From Bdellovibrio sp. (lineage in GTDB: Bacteria; Bdellovibrionota; Bdellovibrionia; Bdellovibrionales; Bdellovibrionaceae): 42,825 nt of DNA. Each line of letters starts with the position of its first letter. The first letter of the stretch is position 1. Where the stretch lies: assembly GCA_014378765.1 (NCBI GenBank), contig JACMNA010000153.1, positions 1 to 42,825 on the forward strand, given 5' to 3'. Of the stretch, positions 1 through 7,867 are shown in pieces. Under the pieces are notes generated by a model that did not search any database, was not told the DNA's origin, and saw nothing but the letters and a program-made list of their open reading frames with translations. The translations under genes were made by a program, and so were the position numbers.

Positions 1-1577
1 GGTAATAGTGAGGCTAGCGCTAAGTCGTAATCATTTTGCTTGTAGGCAATGAAACCTAATTTGTAACGAATTTGGGTAATATGTTCACCGTTTGCATAAT
101 TCGTAACGTACTCAGACGCTAACATTTTTTGACGTTCAACTTCGACCACGTCGTCTTTAACTTCAAGCTGTTTTTCAACTGAATAAAGGGCGCCGTAAAG
201 TGCGTCATGCGCCATGGTCTTATCGATTGCTGCGTGATGCGCAACCTGTTCATAGTTCAAACTTGCGGTAGAAAAGTGGCCCTGTTGAAATTGCAGTTCA
301 GCGAAGGCGTAACGCGATTTAGAATCAGGTTTAGAAATATCTTCGTTCGCAAGTAATATTTCAAACGCCTGTTCCGTCAACTTTGAAAATTCTGGATTTT
401 TTTTATTTTTAAGCCAGATCTCCCACCACTTTTTAGAGATGTCTAAGGCGGCCGTACGAAATTGATCGTGGCAAGTAGGTTGAGGCTGGGTGTGGCAAAA
501 TTCGGCCATTTTCTTTAAGTTTATTAAAACGGCCGCGCGTAATTTCAAGGTTTCATTAACGTCAACCAGTTTTGCATAACACTTTACGGCCTGCAGACTA
601 GATGGGTGTTTTTCAATAAATTCATTTACAAAGATATTGATTTCTTTGTAACGAGAGTGTGATTCATAAAGTGAAGATAACGCCATGATGGCTTCGCCCA
701 ACTCTTCTTCGGTCGTGATTTTTTGGAAAAAGCCAAAAAGTTGTTCCGGTTCCAACGTTTCACCGACAAATAGGGTTAAGTCGCGCAAAGCTTCTTTGCG
801 CAAATTATATTTTTTCGCGTCGGTATCGCCCGCCGGGTTTTGCTTTACCACCAATAATAACTGGTTAACGCCTGACTCGGCTTGCTTTAAATTATAGTGA
901 GCCCAAGCCGACTTATAAAGCCCATAAGGGTAAGCCTTTGATTGTGGATATTTTTCAATGGCTTTAAACTTATCTAATGCCGTTTGAAAATTTTGTTGAA
1001 AATAATAAATTTCGCCGACTTCTAGTAAAGTGTCAGGCACAAGGGGCGACTTTGGAAAAGACGCAATCAGTTGATCGTAAAGATTTTTCGCGCGATCTGT
1101 TTGCTTAGTTTGTAAATGTGCAATAGCGTTGTTAAAGTAAACTGCGTCTAAGCTTTTGTATTTAGGAAAGTTTTTTTCAAGGCGGTTGTAAATGGTAATT
1201 GCATTTTTTAACGCATCTTGGGCCTTTTGGTTTTGTAAGCCAGCAGTTAATAATTGCTTGTCAGTCGTATGGTTCAGGTCGAAAAAGCGACCTGATTTCG
1301 CGCGACGCATGTAAAGTTCAGCAAGGCGAAAAAGTAAATCGGCCTCATCGTCGGAACCTTTTTTCTTTGCGATAATTTTTGTTAAAGCTTCGATGGCTTT
1401 ATTTTCGGTTTTGGTGATTAACACCTCAGATTGAAAAGCCGTTTCTTGGTTTTTATCTTCATTATTTGAATCAAGGCGAACTTCGGGCAACAGTCCTTTG
1501 GTGTTCTCTTGCATCGCAATTGCGGGTAAAGCTAAAAGAACGGTGAGAACTGTTTTGAGTACAAATAATGATTTCAT
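1..1577 (-). CDS. Secreted TPR-repeat protein, 3' end outside window
   Basis: The reverse frame is open from an ATG at 1577 to the left edge, about 525 codons with no stop, so the gene is partial at its C-terminus. The first about 21 residues form a signal peptide (MKSLFVLKTV start, hydrophobic core, AIA end), so the protein is exported. The rest is helical tetratricopeptide-type sequence with typical A/Y/G/F spacing, clearest around residues 150-240. It follows the second TolR-like gene by one base, so it is the last visible gene of the motor operon. TPR proteins accompany TolQ/TolR-type gliding motors (AglT/PglI-type in Myxococcus), where they are thought to work as periplasmic or outer-membrane scaffolds. 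Exact family is not assignable. Confidence 0.8.
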   Translation of the reverse strand, partial: MKSLFVLKTVLTVLLALPAIAMQENTKGLLPEVRLDSNNEDKNQETAFQSEVLITKTENKAIEALTKIIAKKKGSDDEADLLFRLAELYMRRAKSGRFFDLNHTTDKQLLTAGLQNQKAQDALKNAITIYNRLEKNFPKYKSLDAVYFNNAIAHLQTKQTDRAKNLYDQLIASFPKSPLVPDTLLEVGEIYYFQQNFQTALDKFKAIEKYPQSKAYPYGLYKSAWAHYNLKQAESGVNQLLLVVKQNPAGDTDAKKYNLRKEALRDLTLFVGETLEPEQLFGFFQKITTEEELGEAIMALSSLYESHSRYKEINIFVNEFIEKHPSSLQAVKCYAKLVDVNETLKLRAAVLINLKKMAEFCHTQPQPTCHDQFRTAALDISKKWWEIWLKNKKNPEFSKLTEQAFEILLANEDISKPDSKSRYAFAELQFQQGHFSTASLNYEQVAHHAAIDKTMAHDALYGALYSVEKQLEVKDDVVEVERQKMLASEYVTNYANGEHITQIRYKLGFIAYKQNDYDLALASLL

Positions 1578-1578
1578 T

Positions 1579-2082
1579 TTAATTACCGACAACGGTTACA
1601 AGTTTAATATTAGGAAACCCGGCCATTGAAGCCGTGTACATAATTTTGCGAAGGGTCGCGTAGGGAACTTCTTGGTCAGCCTGAAATAGAATCTTACCGA
1701 TTTTAATATCGGGTTTAAGTTTATGGGCTTCATTTAACTTTTGCAGCTCTTCAAATAAGGGCTTAATGAATTCGCCGTCATTTGGATCTATAGCCGCTTG
1801 CTCAATTTTATTATCTGTCACGGATGCCAATTTTAATTGGTCTAGTTTCAGTTCAGTTGGTGAAATTGAAATTTTAATACCATTGACCGGGTTTTTGTCA
1901 GTGTTAGAGGCGGGCAGGCGTACGCCACTGACTGGATCAATCTGCACATCATTCGTAGAATAAGTTTGCAGTAAAAAAACTAACAAGATCGTAAACATAT
2001 CCGTCATTGAGGTAATATTTAGTGCGAAAGTTTGATTACGTTTAATTTCGGGTTTGTATCTATTTCTTTTCATATTATCCAT
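1579..2082 (-). CDS. ExbD/TolR-like proton-channel subunit (second copy, Asp intact)
   Basis: A 167-residue protein with a short basic cytoplasmic N-terminus, one membrane segment (about residues 22-42) and a periplasmic domain, the ExbD/TolR layout. The segment contains Asp28 in SMTDMF, matching the proton-carrying Asp of TolR/ExbD/MotB-type stators. The ATG overlaps the stop of the upstream TolR-like gene by 8 bases, so translation is probably coupled. An in-frame ATG three codons later is an alternative start. With the TolQ-like gene it would form a proton-driven motor in the inner membrane that energises envelope movement, as in AglRQS or ExbBD/TolQR. Which process it drives is not shown by the sequence. 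Confidence 0.85.
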   Translation of the reverse strand: MDNMKRNRYKPEIKRNQTFALNITSMTDMFTILLVFLLQTYSTNDVQIDPVSGVRLPASNTDKNPVNGIKISISPTELKLDQLKLASVTDNKIEQAAIDPNDGEFIKPLFEELQKLNEAHKLKPDIKIGKILFQADQEVPYATLRKIMYTASMAGFPNIKLVTVVGN

Positions 2083-2623
2083 CCATCAGGTTTGCGAAAA
2101 CGATTTCAGGAAACATATACTCAGTCGACGTTTCTTGTCCGGTTTGTTCGTTCTTTACCGGAAATTTGATATCGTTCGATCGCGATTTACGAGCTTCATC
2201 CATAACGCGTACAATTTCTTTGTATGGCACATCGGCATCAGGGCTTAGTTCGATTTTAAAAACTTCGGGGTGACTTTTTTTCACCGCTTGAAATTTAGCG
2301 TGTAAGGCCGGCATGTCGATTTGTTTTTCAGAATTCAGACCAACCAATTCTACTTTGGTTTGACCATTTTCAGTAACGATAATTCGAATGCCATCTTTTT
2401 TATTCATTTCGACGGCCACTTGGGCTGCTTTCGGATTATTTTCTTGCTTTGCAATTGCTTGCTGAACGACTTGGGGTAATTCAGTTTCAATAATCATCAT
2501 TTGCACGAACGCCGATGATACAAGAAGCACCGGCACTAGTTTAACCATAACCGCTAACAACGGAGCTAGATCGAGATCGAACTCCGAGTTATGATTAATT
2601 TTCATTTTAAATCTACGAGCCAT
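2075..2623 (-). CDS. ExbD/TolR-like protein lacking the proton-carrying Asp
   Basis: 182 residues, same layout as its neighbour: short N-terminus, one membrane segment (about 19-43), periplasmic C-terminal domain. The segment reads PLLAVMVKL where TolR has PLLDV, so the conserved Asp is Ala24, and a Lys (Lys28) lies in the membrane stretch. This copy probably cannot relay protons and may act only as a structural half of a heterodimer with the intact copy at 1579-2082. Start ATG has GGAGT 7 bases upstream. It lies 51 bases after the TolQ-like gene in the same leftward operon. Confidence 0.85.
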   Translation of the reverse strand: MARRFKMKINHNSEFDLDLAPLLAVMVKLVPVLLVSSAFVQMMIIETELPQVVQQAIAKQENNPKAAQVAVEMNKKDGIRIIVTENGQTKVELVGLNSEKQIDMPALHAKFQAVKKSHPEVFKIELSPDADVPYKEIVRVMDEARKSRSNDIKFPVKNEQTGQETSTEYMFPEIVFANLMDG

Positions 2624-2674: not shown

Positions 2675-3391
2675 TTACGACGCTTTAGTGTTGGCTGCTG
2701 GCGGCGTTGGCTGTTTTGATTTCATGCCACTTGCTTCAGGGTAAACTTCGTTTTTTGCGAAGCCGGGCATTTGGCTGCTAGTTAAAGTTTCTGTTAATTT
2801 CGAGCACTTCTCGGTTAATTGCTCTAACAATTCGTTTTGACGTGAGGTTAAAAATGAAAATGCAACCATCGCCGGAATCGCAACGGCCAGACCTAACGCT
2901 GTCGTATACATTGAAACGGCAATACCGCTTGCTAACAAAGCTTGTTTTTGAGCCGGGTCAGCTTGCGCCACCGCTTGGAACGATAAGATCAAACCATGGA
3001 TGGTACCTAATAAACCAAGTAAAGTAGAAACGTTGGCTAGCATTGATAAGTAATGCAAGCGCTTCGTGTAGAACGGAACCGTTTCCGCCATCGCAATATC
3101 TTGGGCTTGGAAAATAGTTTCATCATCGCGATCTGACTTTTCTAAGATAACTTTAAAGGCGCGCGCTAATGGCTTTGACTCTAACTGCGCACAAGCAATG
3201 ATGGCTTCTTCATTCTTTTTACCTAGAACAAGCGTCTGAATTTTATTTGTAAACTCTTCGACGTTCATTCCATAGGCGAAATAAAGAGTGCGCGCACGTT
3301 CAATGACTAACGCAACTCCGATAATTCCCGTTAAAATGATCGTCCAACCAACAACCCCAGACTGTGAAATGAAACCTAAAAAACCTGACAT
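2675..3391 (-). CDS. MotA/TolQ/ExbB-family proton channel protein
   Basis: 238 residues with three membrane segments (about 12-30, 112-140, 153-185). The MotA_ExbB signature is present: LGLLGTIHG followed by GIAVSMYTTALGLAVAIP, including the conserved Thr/Ser positions that line the TolQ pore. It forms the inner-membrane stator ring that conducts protons together with the two TolR-like proteins encoded next. A strong ribosome site (AGGAGG, 5-6 bases before the ATG) sets the start. One TolQ followed by two TolR genes is the arrangement of Myxococcus aglRQS, the gliding motor. The C-terminal 25 residues are Pro/Ala/Lys-rich and probably disordered. Confidence 0.9.
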   Translation of the reverse strand: MSGFLGFISQSGVVGWTIILTGIIGVALVIERARTLYFAYGMNVEEFTNKIQTLVLGKKNEEAIIACAQLESKPLARAFKVILEKSDRDDETIFQAQDIAMAETVPFYTKRLHYLSMLANVSTLLGLLGTIHGLILSFQAVAQADPAQKQALLASGIAVSMYTTALGLAVAIPAMVAFSFLTSRQNELLEQLTEKCSKLTETLTSSQMPGFAKNEVYPEASGMKSKQPTPPAANTKAS

Positions 3392-3438: not shown

Positions 3439-3999
3439 TTAAGCAGCTGAAATCCAGCTTTTTATCTGTGTAATACCGACAGATTGTATATCGTTAAAAC
3501 GAACCGCATAATAGAGACCAGATTTTGAGTTCAGTCGCTGCTTCGAAAAGTTTTTACGGATTACTTCCGCTTCAATGTTAAAGGCCATTTCTTGCTGGCC
3601 TTTCGCCTTGATATGTAATTTTAATAAGTCACCAATTTGTACCAACGGGGTGTTTAGTAAACAAAGTCCGCCCATCTCAGAAACTGATACCAGCTCGCCG
3701 TCAAAAAAGCGTACGGTGTTGTGACCCAATAGCGGAATTTTCACTTCAGTGCGTTCATTTTTACGCTGCATAAAAGTACTTAGGTAGTCTGATTCTTTTT
3801 GTAATAAAAGTTGAAAGCGATCTTTGCTGAACTCTTCAAGCGTGTGAACTTGCGTCCAACTTTCTAAATGATCAGCCCAAACGTAGTTGTAATCCATCAA
3901 CTGATTAGTTTGCATCATGTTAATCATCGTCTTGTAGTCGTAGGGTCCGTACTTTTGTTCTCCAAGTAGAACATACCAGCCATTTTCAGGGTGTAACAT
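3439..3999 (-). CDS. GYF_2-PilZ domain protein
   Basis: 186 residues, no signal or membrane segment, so cytoplasmic. Residues 5-56 look like a GYF_2 domain (GWYVLL...YGPY start, Trp41 and Trp48), a fold that binds Pro-rich peptides or membrane partners. Residues 78-180 look like a PilZ domain. The c-di-GMP signature is partly kept: RxxxR at Arg79-Arg83, and SVSEMGG at 105-111 where D/NxSxxG is usual, so the first Asp/Asn is Ser. It sits between a VWA lipoprotein and the TolQ-like gene, with AAGGA before the ATG. I infer that it couples c-di-GMP to the motor. Whether it still binds the nucleotide is open. Confidence 0.8.
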   Translation of the reverse strand: MLHPENGWYVLLGEQKYGPYDYKTMINMMQTNQLMDYNYVWADHLESWTQVHTLEEFSKDRFQLLLQKESDYLSTFMQRKNERTEVKIPLLGHNTVRFFDGELVSVSEMGGLCLLNTPLVQIGDLLKLHIKAKGQQEMAFNIEAEVIRKNFSKQRLNSKSGLYYAVRFNDIQSVGITQIKSWISAA

Positions 4000-4013: not shown

Positions 4014-5063
4014 TTAGTTGATTTTCGCTGGGTCAAAATTAATTGTAATGCTTGCACCAGCTTGGGGCTGAAAAGTTGATCCGTTGATGTGAATGCTATT
4101 CGCTACGCTATCGTAAGACCAACCGTTGGTTGCGCTTTCTGGAATCAATACGCCATCAATGATGACGCGAATCGAAGTTGGGTCTGGACGACTTTTCAGT
4201 ATAAAGTTCGCTTGAGTTTGTGTGGCGATGGAAGCGCTGATATTATTCAAAACGGTTGTAAACGGTGAGCATAACGAATTTTTGCTTCCGCCTGTCATGT
4301 CCGCAAGCTGCATGTATCGTATTGCGACTTTAGATACACCACCAAGGCTTAAGCGGCAGGCCTCGTCCGTAATAGAAATTGTAGAAACTGAAAAATCTTT
4401 AATGGCTGATGCGTTGGTAAATGATTCTAAAAATGATTTGTAAGAAGAAACTGGGTGCAAAGTAGGTTGCGTGTAGGATTCATTGGCCGTCATGTCATCG
4501 TGCGAGAAGTCTTCTTCGTCAGAAACTATGATAACAGCTAAAAAAGCGTCACTACGGTGAAAATTAACGTTTAAAGAACTTGATAAAGCCGCCTTTAAAC
4601 TTGAGAAAGCCCGTTCATCGCCACTTCCTGTCGTGCCGACCTGTACGTTTGAACCAAATACAGATTCAAGATTTGGCGTGTTGTTATCAACAACGTAAAT
4701 TTTAGGCGTAGTGCCCGAACGGAAGCGAGTTTGTTCGACGGTGCAAAGCGAACAGCCGCTGTTCACGAATTGGTCACCGTAGTAAGCATCTGTAGTTGTG
4801 ATTGCGATTCTAAAATCATAACCTTTAGATTTAAAGTAATTAATGAATGAAGGAAAGTTAGAGGCTAAGTTTGATTGTGAAGTTCGCATCGAACCCGAAT
4901 TATCAACCACAAACAAAACATCTAGTTTTCTTGGAACAAAAGTTGACGCTTGCTGAAATTGATCGGTTCCAGATAAAACAGAGAATGAGCTTCCACCTTT
5001 ATCGCAGCCGGTAAATATCGTTAGGCCCGAGATGCAAATCATTGTAAGTTTTTTTAGAGACAT
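4014..5063 (-). CDS. von Willebrand factor A (VWA) domain lipoprotein
   Basis: 349 residues. The N-terminus is a lipoprotein signal with the acylation site at Cys20 (IFTGC). A VWA domain follows from about residue 45; its metal-binding MIDAS motif is intact (Asp54-x-Ser56-x-Ser58 in DNSGS), with a further SDEED acidic patch downstream. The last about 80 residues resemble a small beta-domain. VWA domains mediate metal-dependent protein contacts. The gene starts the leftward motor operon (15 bases before the GYF-PilZ gene), with a good ribosome site (GGGAGGA) before the ATG. It probably sits in the periplasm or on the outer membrane. Its ligand is unknown. Confidence 0.85.
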   Translation of the reverse strand: MSLKKLTMICISGLTIFTGCDKGGSSFSVLSGTDQFQQASTFVPRKLDVLFVVDNSGSMRTSQSNLASNFPSFINYFKSKGYDFRIAITTTDAYYGDQFVNSGCSLCTVEQTRFRSGTTPKIYVVDNNTPNLESVFGSNVQVGTTGSGDERAFSSLKAALSSSLNVNFHRSDAFLAVIIVSDEEDFSHDDMTANESYTQPTLHPVSSYKSFLESFTNASAIKDFSVSTISITDEACRLSLGGVSKVAIRYMQLADMTGGSKNSLCSPFTTVLNNISASIATQTQANFILKSRPDPTSIRVIIDGVLIPESATNGWSYDSVANSIHINGSTFQPQAGASITINFDPAKIN

Positions 5064-6670: not shown

Positions 6671-6711
6671 AAAATATTGACGGCGACGCCCAAGTTTTTA
6701 AAGATGACAGC

Positions 6712-7867
6712 ATGTCTTTAGTCGCTGAATTGCCAGATATAAAAAAAGAAATTGCGGGCCTAGAAAAATTCTCGGCCGAGCTTCGGGGGTATCTTTGACC
6801 TCGATAAAAAGAAAAAGCGCCTTGACGAACTAGCCCTAGCCTCTGAAAATCCGGCTATTTGGGGTAAGCCTCAAGAGATGCAAAAATTAAATAAAGAAAA
6901 ATCAATGTTAGAAAAATCAGTGGCCGAGTGGTCTGGCTTCAACCGTCGCTTAGAAGATGCCAAAGTTTTGCTAGATATGGCTGCCGAAGCCTGCGACGAA
7001 GAAACCTTTAAAGAAGTAAAATCTGAAATTGGCGAAATAAAAAAAACCGGTGAGTCGTTAGAATTAAAACGCGTTCTCAGCGGCGAGCTTGATGGAAACA
7101 GCACTTACATTTCAATTAACTCGGGCGCCGGTGGCACCGAAAGCTGTGACTGGGCCGCCATGCTTTTACGAATGTACACACGCTACGCCGATAAGCATGG
7201 TTACCGGTGCGAAGTCCTAGATATGAATGATGGTGAAGAGGCCGGAATTAAATCGTGTACGCTGCTAATTTCGGGCGAATACGCCTACGGATATTTAAAA
7301 TCCGAAGCGGGCGTTCATCGATTGGTGCGAATTTCACCATTTGATTCAAACGCCAGAAGGCACACTTCGTTTGCTTCTGTTTCAGTATGGGCTGAAGTTG
7401 ATGACGATATAAATATTGAAGTTCGCCCCGATGATATCGAAGTTGAAACCTACCGTTCAAGTGGGGCCGGCGGCCAGCACGTTAATAAAACCGATTCGGC
7501 CGTGCGCATGCGCCATCTGCCTTCGGGAATCGTCGTCTCGTGTCAAACGCAGCGATCGCAAATTCAAAATCGTGAAAAAGCCATGAAGATGTTAAAAGCC
7601 GCACTTTACGAAAAAGAAGTTGAAAAACGTAATAAAGAAAAAGATGAATTGAACGCCCAGAAAAAAGCTAACGAATGGGGATCGCAAATTAGATCTTACG
7701 TTTTACATCCCTACCAAATGGTTAAAGATCACCGCACCGTGTTTCAAACTAATCAAGTTAATGATATTTTAGACGGTGAACTAGATGAATTTATTATGGC
7801 GTACTTGAAGGCGCAATTGTCTGGAACGCTAGGTCTGGTTGAAGCCAGTGGAGATGACTTAACGTGA
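6712..7867 (+). CDS. prfB: Peptide chain release factor 2, with programmed +1 frameshift
   Basis: Coding is in two frames: 6712-6795, then 6797-7867, joined by a +1 shift at the in-frame TGA (6796-6798). The joined protein is about 385 residues. The RF2-specific tripeptide SPF (in RISPFD) recognises UGA/UAA, and GGQ at about residue 253 (SGAGGQHVN) triggers peptide release in the ribosome. The ATG at 6712 gives a 28-codon leader, close to the known length, but has no clear ribosome site. RF2 autoregulates its level: when scarce, the ribosome pauses at UGA and shifts. It ends in a GTGA overlap with lolC/E. Confidence 0.95.
6781..6799 (+). promoter_or_regulatory. RF2 programmed frameshift site
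   Basis: The sequence CTTCGGGGGTATCTTTGAC matches the conserved RF2 recoding site: an internal Shine-Dalgarno-like GGGGG, three bases, the slippery CTT codon, then TGA followed by C (a poor stop context). E. coli has AGGGGG where this has CGGGGG. Downstream the +1 frame continues directly as RF2 (DLDKKKKRL). Confidence 0.95.

Follow-up and report, generated by a model that had tools for sequence, protein, structure and literature searches.

A GYF_2-PilZ protein in a gliding-type TolQ/TolR operon of Bdellovibrio and a candidate docking tail on its channel protein

The GYF_2-PilZ gene and its motor operon

The window analyzed here, a 42,825-nucleotide stretch of Bdellovibrio sp. DNA from a genome of 2.87 Mb that is 92% complete (G000), carries on its minus strand a gene for a 186-residue GYF_2-PilZ protein (3439..3999), identified by its open reading frame, its Pfam domains, and its gene order relative to Bd1482 of Bdellovibrio bacteriovorus. 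The gene runs from an ATG at 3999 to a stop at 3439, exactly the interval marked in a first-pass annotation of this DNA, and the plus strand of the same interval is crowded with stops. That annotation had placed a GYF_2 and a PilZ domain in one protein and suggested a Pfam search as a check, and the search finds both above their cut-offs: GYF_2 over residues 8-57 (3829..3978, minus strand; E 6.5e-9, 35.9 bits against a cut-off of 25.8) and PilZ over residues 78-183 (3451..3768, minus strand; E 6.1e-8, 33.4 bits against a cut-off of 22.5). The first assignment agrees with family residue counts and with a profile match to PDB entry 7z3c, and the second agrees with structural alignment by VIA-align. 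Translation and family residue counts locate, on the same strand, the RxxxR motif of the PilZ domain (R79-R83, RKNER; 3751..3765) and its second motif (105-SVSEMG-110; 3670..3687). A chance reading frame was ruled out by the Pfam domains, by the kept gene order, and by relatives at E<=0.01 in 56 of the 59 genomes, a figure that includes a longer paralogue.

The gene lies inside an operon whose members are all read from the minus strand. The first of these encodes a vWA lipoprotein of the MIDAS type (4014..5063), which is the counterpart of Bd1483, matches VWA_2 below the cut-off (E 0.035), and stands 14 nt from the GYF_2-PilZ gene. On the other side follow a TolQ/ExbB/MotA-type, AglR-like channel protein of 238 residues (2675..3391; Pfam MotA_ExbB, 7.5e-25), a first ExbD/TolR protein with its transmembrane Asp replaced (2075..2623; LLAVM), and a second one with that Asp kept (1579..2082; MTDMF), the two ExbD proteins having Pfam E values of 4.8e-20 and 1.7e-15. 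Last comes the 5' part of a gene for a long TPR protein (3..1577), which ends at the contig end; the protein has about 1,210 residues in relatives, and the TPR matches were found in one of these (L031). Family members share the order vWA-PilZ-TolQ-TolR-TolR-TPR, and a TolQ orthologue was found in 63 of the 66 family genomes searched (E<=1e-38), the other three being two incomplete assemblies without usable TolQ data (G006 and G073) and one complete genome from which the motor is absent (G002). The linkage to a TolQ/TolR motor made in the first-pass annotation is confirmed by these neighbors, but its phrase "directly upstream" of the motor understated the position: the gene does adjoin TolQ, and it does so from within the operon, between the vWA and TolQ genes. 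The upstream vWA gene and the downstream TPR gene had been left out of that description.

In two relatives for which longer stretches are available (L031 and L083), the TPR gene is followed by a GltG-like gene and an outer-membrane barrel gene, and the operon is therefore taken to encode a motor of the Agl/Glt gliding type. GltG models match both stretches (NF033760, 3.8e-41; myxo_SS_tail, 110.8 bits against a cut-off of 40), the GltG-like protein scoring 141.4 where the full-length cut-off is 650, and OMP_myx_plus matches the barrel of L031 (77.3 against a cut-off of 60). A TolQ, two TolR proteins, and a linked GltG-type gene are thus found together, the last of them in L031 and L083, as the window ends before it. 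Within the motor, Ala or Ser replaces the transmembrane Asp of the first TolR in all 62 family rows, and all 60 rows of the second TolR retain it; among order-level relatives, 10 of 15 have Asp in the first TolR. Judged from these residues, the family's motor may use one protonatable Asp per TolR pair.

Elsewhere in the window, the plus-strand region 6703-7867 was recognized by eye as prfB, encoding release factor 2, with an apparent programmed frameshift site, GGGGGTATCTTTGAC, near 6785-6800, so that translation probably does not begin at 6878, where the listed ORF starts.

The same arrangement occurs in G059, where the order vWA-GYF-PilZ-TolQ-TolR-TolR-TPR fits the published numbering Bd1483-Bd1480 and the orthologue carries both domains (GYF_2, 9.7e-9; PilZ, 1.8e-12). 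Bd1482 of B. bacteriovorus occupies the same operon position and is, by gene order, the orthologue of the window's GYF-PilZ protein. Passages of the published work place Bd1482, a PilZ gene, at the head of a gliding operon, and Hobley et al. (2012) named it as a candidate target of DgcA in gliding (PMC3271064). In passages of other papers, Bd1483 is described as a lipobox MIDAS protein whose deletion leaves predation normal (PMC11003981), Bd1481 as aglR, with insertions in it and in Bd1483 impairing biofilm predation (PMC2277423), and Bd1480 as aglQ (PMC9140294). The account of Bd1482 in the available text of PMC3271064 mentions neither a GYF domain nor a TolQ tail, the term "GYF" having 0 occurrences there. 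No description of a GYF-PilZ protein or a TolQ tail at Bd1483-Bd1480 was found in the open-access literature searched, and one may exist elsewhere.

A candidate GYF ligand at the TolQ C terminus

GYF domains bind proline-rich peptides, and residues W8, G18, P19, W41, and W48 of the GYF_2 domain are present in all 62 family sequences. A 16-sequence profile (A2) matches a single GYF structure in the PDB, that of Adventurous gliding motility protein X (7z3c; E 1.1e-5), and the parallel that the first-pass annotation had drawn with Myxococcus GltJ is borne out by this best solved relative, agmX being listed as gltJ in a table of PMC3169522; that paper reports no GltJ homologue in Bdellovibrio. A PDB search with a single GYF-PilZ sequence (phmmer) returned neurexin noise only, and 7z3c is absent among the Foldseek/VIA matches listed, which excludes nothing. 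The full-length GltJ model NF033761 gave no match, and NCBIfam as a whole gives none for the GYF-PilZ protein at E<=0.1.

Other GYF proteins are present in these genomes. G000 encodes two more, one (L103) hit by the GYF portion of the GltJ model (5.1e-5) and the other (L105) being a further GYF-PilZ protein, whose locus on contig C104 (L105:895-1671) lies directly 3' of a gene that by eye resembles those for patatin-like phospholipases. A second GYF-PilZ paralogue (L084:7409-9249, where it has two GYF matches, with equivalents in L076, L077, and L099-L102) stands beside another vWA gene without a TolQ; we take this pair to be, probably, Bd3100/Bd3099. Across the phylum, 145 of the 191 genomes have GYF-PilZ matches to profile A2 (E<=1e-10), some of the matches spanning one domain only, so the architecture is a recurring one and not peculiar to this motor.

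The TolQ protein of the operon ends in a 32-residue C-terminal tail (residues 207-238; 2678..2773, minus strand) that is predicted to be disordered (AlphaFold2 pLDDT about 35) and that we presume, from TolQ/ExbB homology, to lie on the cytoplasmic side. The tail closes with PP-x(2-5)-K-[A/V]-S, which in the window reads PPAANTKAS followed by the stop (2675..2704, minus strand), and this we propose as the ligand of the GYF domain. Among 61 full family tails, 60 have PP 5-8 residues from the end (7 residues after PP in 45, 6 in 9, 5 in 5, and 8 in 1; PP is absent in 1). When the last 24 residues were shuffled, PP occurred anywhere in 33.9 of 61 tails and at 4-9 residues from the end in 10.2 on average, with a maximum of 22, against the 60 observed; proline richness alone accordingly accounts for some of the PP pairs and not for their fixed position. 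That the tail might be a general feature of MotA/ExbB proteins was rejected, as PP was found in 0 of 31 paralogous channel proteins from 14 genomes, most of which end soon past the helix end; this count leaves out the MotA-type loci L109, L112, and L113 of G000, which gave no BLAST match. Searched as DNA, the pattern PP-x4-K-[AV]-S-stop matched this TolQ in all 12 tailed genomes chosen, with no match in G002 or G019. Over the 14 genomes it gave 4 non-TolQ matches, of which one has an internal stop and the one in G008 ends no listed ORF in frame, whereas a reversed control pattern gave 14 matches forward and 4 reverse. We therefore claim no additional proteins as clients through such a motif.

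Of the 63 family genomes with a TolQ orthologue, 59 have both PP and a same-strand GYF-PilZ gene, and G081 has both in an inverted arrangement on a short contig. There, unlike in the rest of the family, TolQ and GYF-PilZ stand tail to tail at the contig start (L184:1-1200), likely through an assembly error in a genome that is 54% complete. G030 keeps GYF-PilZ and has no PP in its TolQ tail. The p value of 0.0016 that a Fisher test gives for the family table takes no account of relatedness and is hence given no weight.

Two genomes, G019 and G021, have neither the GYF-PilZ gene nor any part of the TolQ tail, and both retain the motor. In G019, the genes for vWA, TolQ, TolR, TolR, and TPR retain their order, and fewer than 50 bases separate the vWA stop from the likely TolQ start, where GYF-PilZ would be expected; its TolQ ends in LTSHH, at the point where the modeled TolQ of the window ceases to be ordered, and no tail-like reading follows the stop. 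The TolQ of G021 ends in LTSGH, and no GYF-PilZ or vWA match was found in the roughly 1.2 kb upstream that its contig offers. In a maximum-likelihood tree of TolQ with 82 rows, the two genomes group together (100/99) beside G024, in a clade nested among tailed, GYF-PilZ-bearing relatives, and this placement indicates that a single branch lost both the protein and the tail and kept the motor. The joint loss is a single event, seen in two genomes.

Beyond the family, the link between GYF-PilZ and the PP tail is weaker. The order-level sample comprised 15 of 22 relatives, those with a TolQ orthologue that was used, and stops short of G041, G047, G056, G038, and G053 (no TolQ match above 37% identity), G049 (a 3.2-kb contig), and G055. 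In seven of the 15, the TolQ close to GYF-PilZ lacks PP; isolated prolines occur in most of these seven tails, and the tails of G057 and G039 have few or none near the end. The other eight have PP, four of them without a same-strand GYF-PilZ neighbor. These four include G054, where an apparent adjacency was rejected as a spurious low-complexity match; in G048 the GYF-PilZ neighbor is on the opposite strand. Within the genus, the complete genome G002 (2,657,893 bp) has lost vWA, TolQ, TolR, and TPR at this place and kept GYF-PilZ, which adjoins mazG with its motifs intact (L045:7897-8454; G002:C1:892899-893441). No other TolQ orthologue was found in G002, the best match reaching 36%, so that the protein must have a second role there.

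These cases bear on the alternative that GYF-PilZ does regulate gliding, with its GYF domain bound to a factor of the cell pole or cytoskeleton that is GltJ-, AglZ-, or MglA-like, the tail of TolQ serving otherwise. Such a partner would suit G002, which retains the protein without this TolQ, as well as G030 and the seven order-level genomes that have GYF-PilZ without the PP tail, and the closest solved GYF relative belongs to GltJ and not to a stator subunit. It fits poorly with a tail that is specific to this TolQ among the channel paralogues, with the fixed spacing of PP from the end, and with the loss of the tail together with GYF-PilZ in G019 and G021, and we regard it as rather unlikely.

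The putative nucleotide site of the PilZ domain

As read in the first-pass annotation, RxxxR is kept and Ser replaces Asp/Asn in the second motif. R79 and R83 are present in 61 of 62 family sequences, with one gap, and of the (D/N)xSxxG motif the SxxG part is present (S107 and G110 in 62 of 62), its first residue being Ser105 in SVSEMG. Position 105 is Ser in 55 family sequences, the others having Asn (6) or Thr (1). The 13 order-level rows, of which that of G054 is a spurious match, have R79 in 13, R83 in 12, S107 in 10, and Glu at position 105 in 8. Across 16 diverse sequences, down to 24% identity, W8, G18, P19, W41, W48, R79, R83, and G110 are invariant.

A structure model of the GYF-PilZ protein was made from an 8-sequence alignment. 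The top structural match of its PilZ part is MotI/DgrA (5vx6; Z 12.1, rmsd 2.4, 98 aligned residues in VIA-align), and further PilZ folds matched are those of MapZ, BcsA, and VCA0042 with c-di-GMP (Z 10.6). At a mean pLDDT of 65.9 the model is weak, and these matches therefore say little past membership in the PilZ fold. From the site residues and this model, nucleotide binding by the PilZ domain is plausible.

The variation at position 105, mostly Ser in the family with some Asn and Thr and mostly Glu in the order, might instead reflect a different ligand, the docking being the same and the nucleotide being 3',3'-cGAMP, or both nucleotides being bound. To our knowledge, no PilZ domain prefers cGAMP, which counts against this reading, as does the classical Asn at position 105 in six family members. 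In passages of PMC9140294, both gliding exit and the expression of bd1480 are tied to cGAMP made by Bd0367, and the published effect lends cGAMP some weight, but it includes transcript levels, for which a protein receptor is not needed; altogether we think cGAMP an improbable ligand. Equally improbable in our view is a PilZ domain that has lost nucleotide binding and serves in a constitutive adaptor or assembly factor, which the Ser at the Asp/Asn position and the low-confidence model would allow, since essentially none of the 62 family sequences departs from R79, R83, S107, and G110, and the invariance of R79, R83, and G110 in the 16 diverse ones would be odd for an unused site.

Proposed role and relation to known systems

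We propose, and consider the chances evenly balanced, that the GYF-PilZ protein acts as a receptor for a second messenger, held by the TolQ tail on the stator of an Agl/Glt motor, where nucleotide bound to its PilZ domain alters the stator. Each AglR-like TolQ subunit would present PP-x(2-5)-K-[A/V]-S at its cytoplasmic end for the GYF domain to grip, and several copies of the protein could ring the cytoplasmic face of the channel. With R79/R83 and the SxSxxG loop, the PilZ domain would bind a cyclic dinucleotide, c-di-GMP being the likeliest, and the nucleotide-bound form may change stator engagement or proton flow, acting either as a brake or as an activator. The conserved tail on the operon's own TolQ, together with the joint loss, gives new support to the link with the motor, and the first-pass interpretation is, as a whole, partly supported: its domain pair, motor linkage, conserved RxxxR, and GltJ parallel stand, and the direct route from c-di-GMP to motor activity is a putative one. 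More tentatively, we can picture the protein as a removable, signal-dependent clutch that plugs into a linear motif on each channel subunit of a proton-driven stator and that would, in Bdellovibrionota, replace the GYF module of Myxococcus GltJ, the receptor and the tail being a single unit in evolution and lost as such.

The locus is not new, as Bd1482 has already been published as the PilZ gene of a gliding operon, and the novelty likely lies in the candidate docking site, that is, in the pairing of receptor and tail as a testable proposal. The control of Bdellovibrio gliding by DgcA/Bd0367, a GGDEF enzyme, has been in print since 2012, with the receptor and its target in the machine merely guessed; a named candidate receptor, a putative nine-residue docking peptide on the stator, and a natural lineage without both make this gap directly testable. 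If true, the proposal would provide a defined ligand class for the GYF domains of bacterial gliding machines and another route, beside YcgR and MotI, from a PilZ protein to a MotA/TolQ-type channel.

YcgR and MotI act on flagellar stators. Like YcgR and MotI (DgrA), the GYF-PilZ protein would be a PilZ receptor on a channel of the MotA/TolQ superfamily. It is without the N-terminal domain of YcgR, Pfam finding GYF_2 in that place, and is therefore not a YcgR, the likeness lying in the mode of action alone; the docking proposed is through a GYF domain bound to a linear tail, and the motor is of the Agl/Glt and not the flagellar kind. GltJ (AgmX) of Myxococcus xanthus also brings a cytosolic GYF domain to a gliding machine and, as far as we know, has no PilZ domain. 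At 674 residues in a table of PMC3169522, GltJ stands in contrast to the small soluble GYF-PilZ protein described here. With the AglRQS/Glt motor of Myxococcus the operon shares a TolQ and two TolR genes, with GltG-like and OMP_myx_plus genes next in relatives; a different Bdellovibrio cluster, Bd0828-0838, is favored as the closest to aglRQS in a passage of PMC3169522. The operon described here differs from the AglRQS/Glt motor in having the vWA and GYF-PilZ genes inside it.
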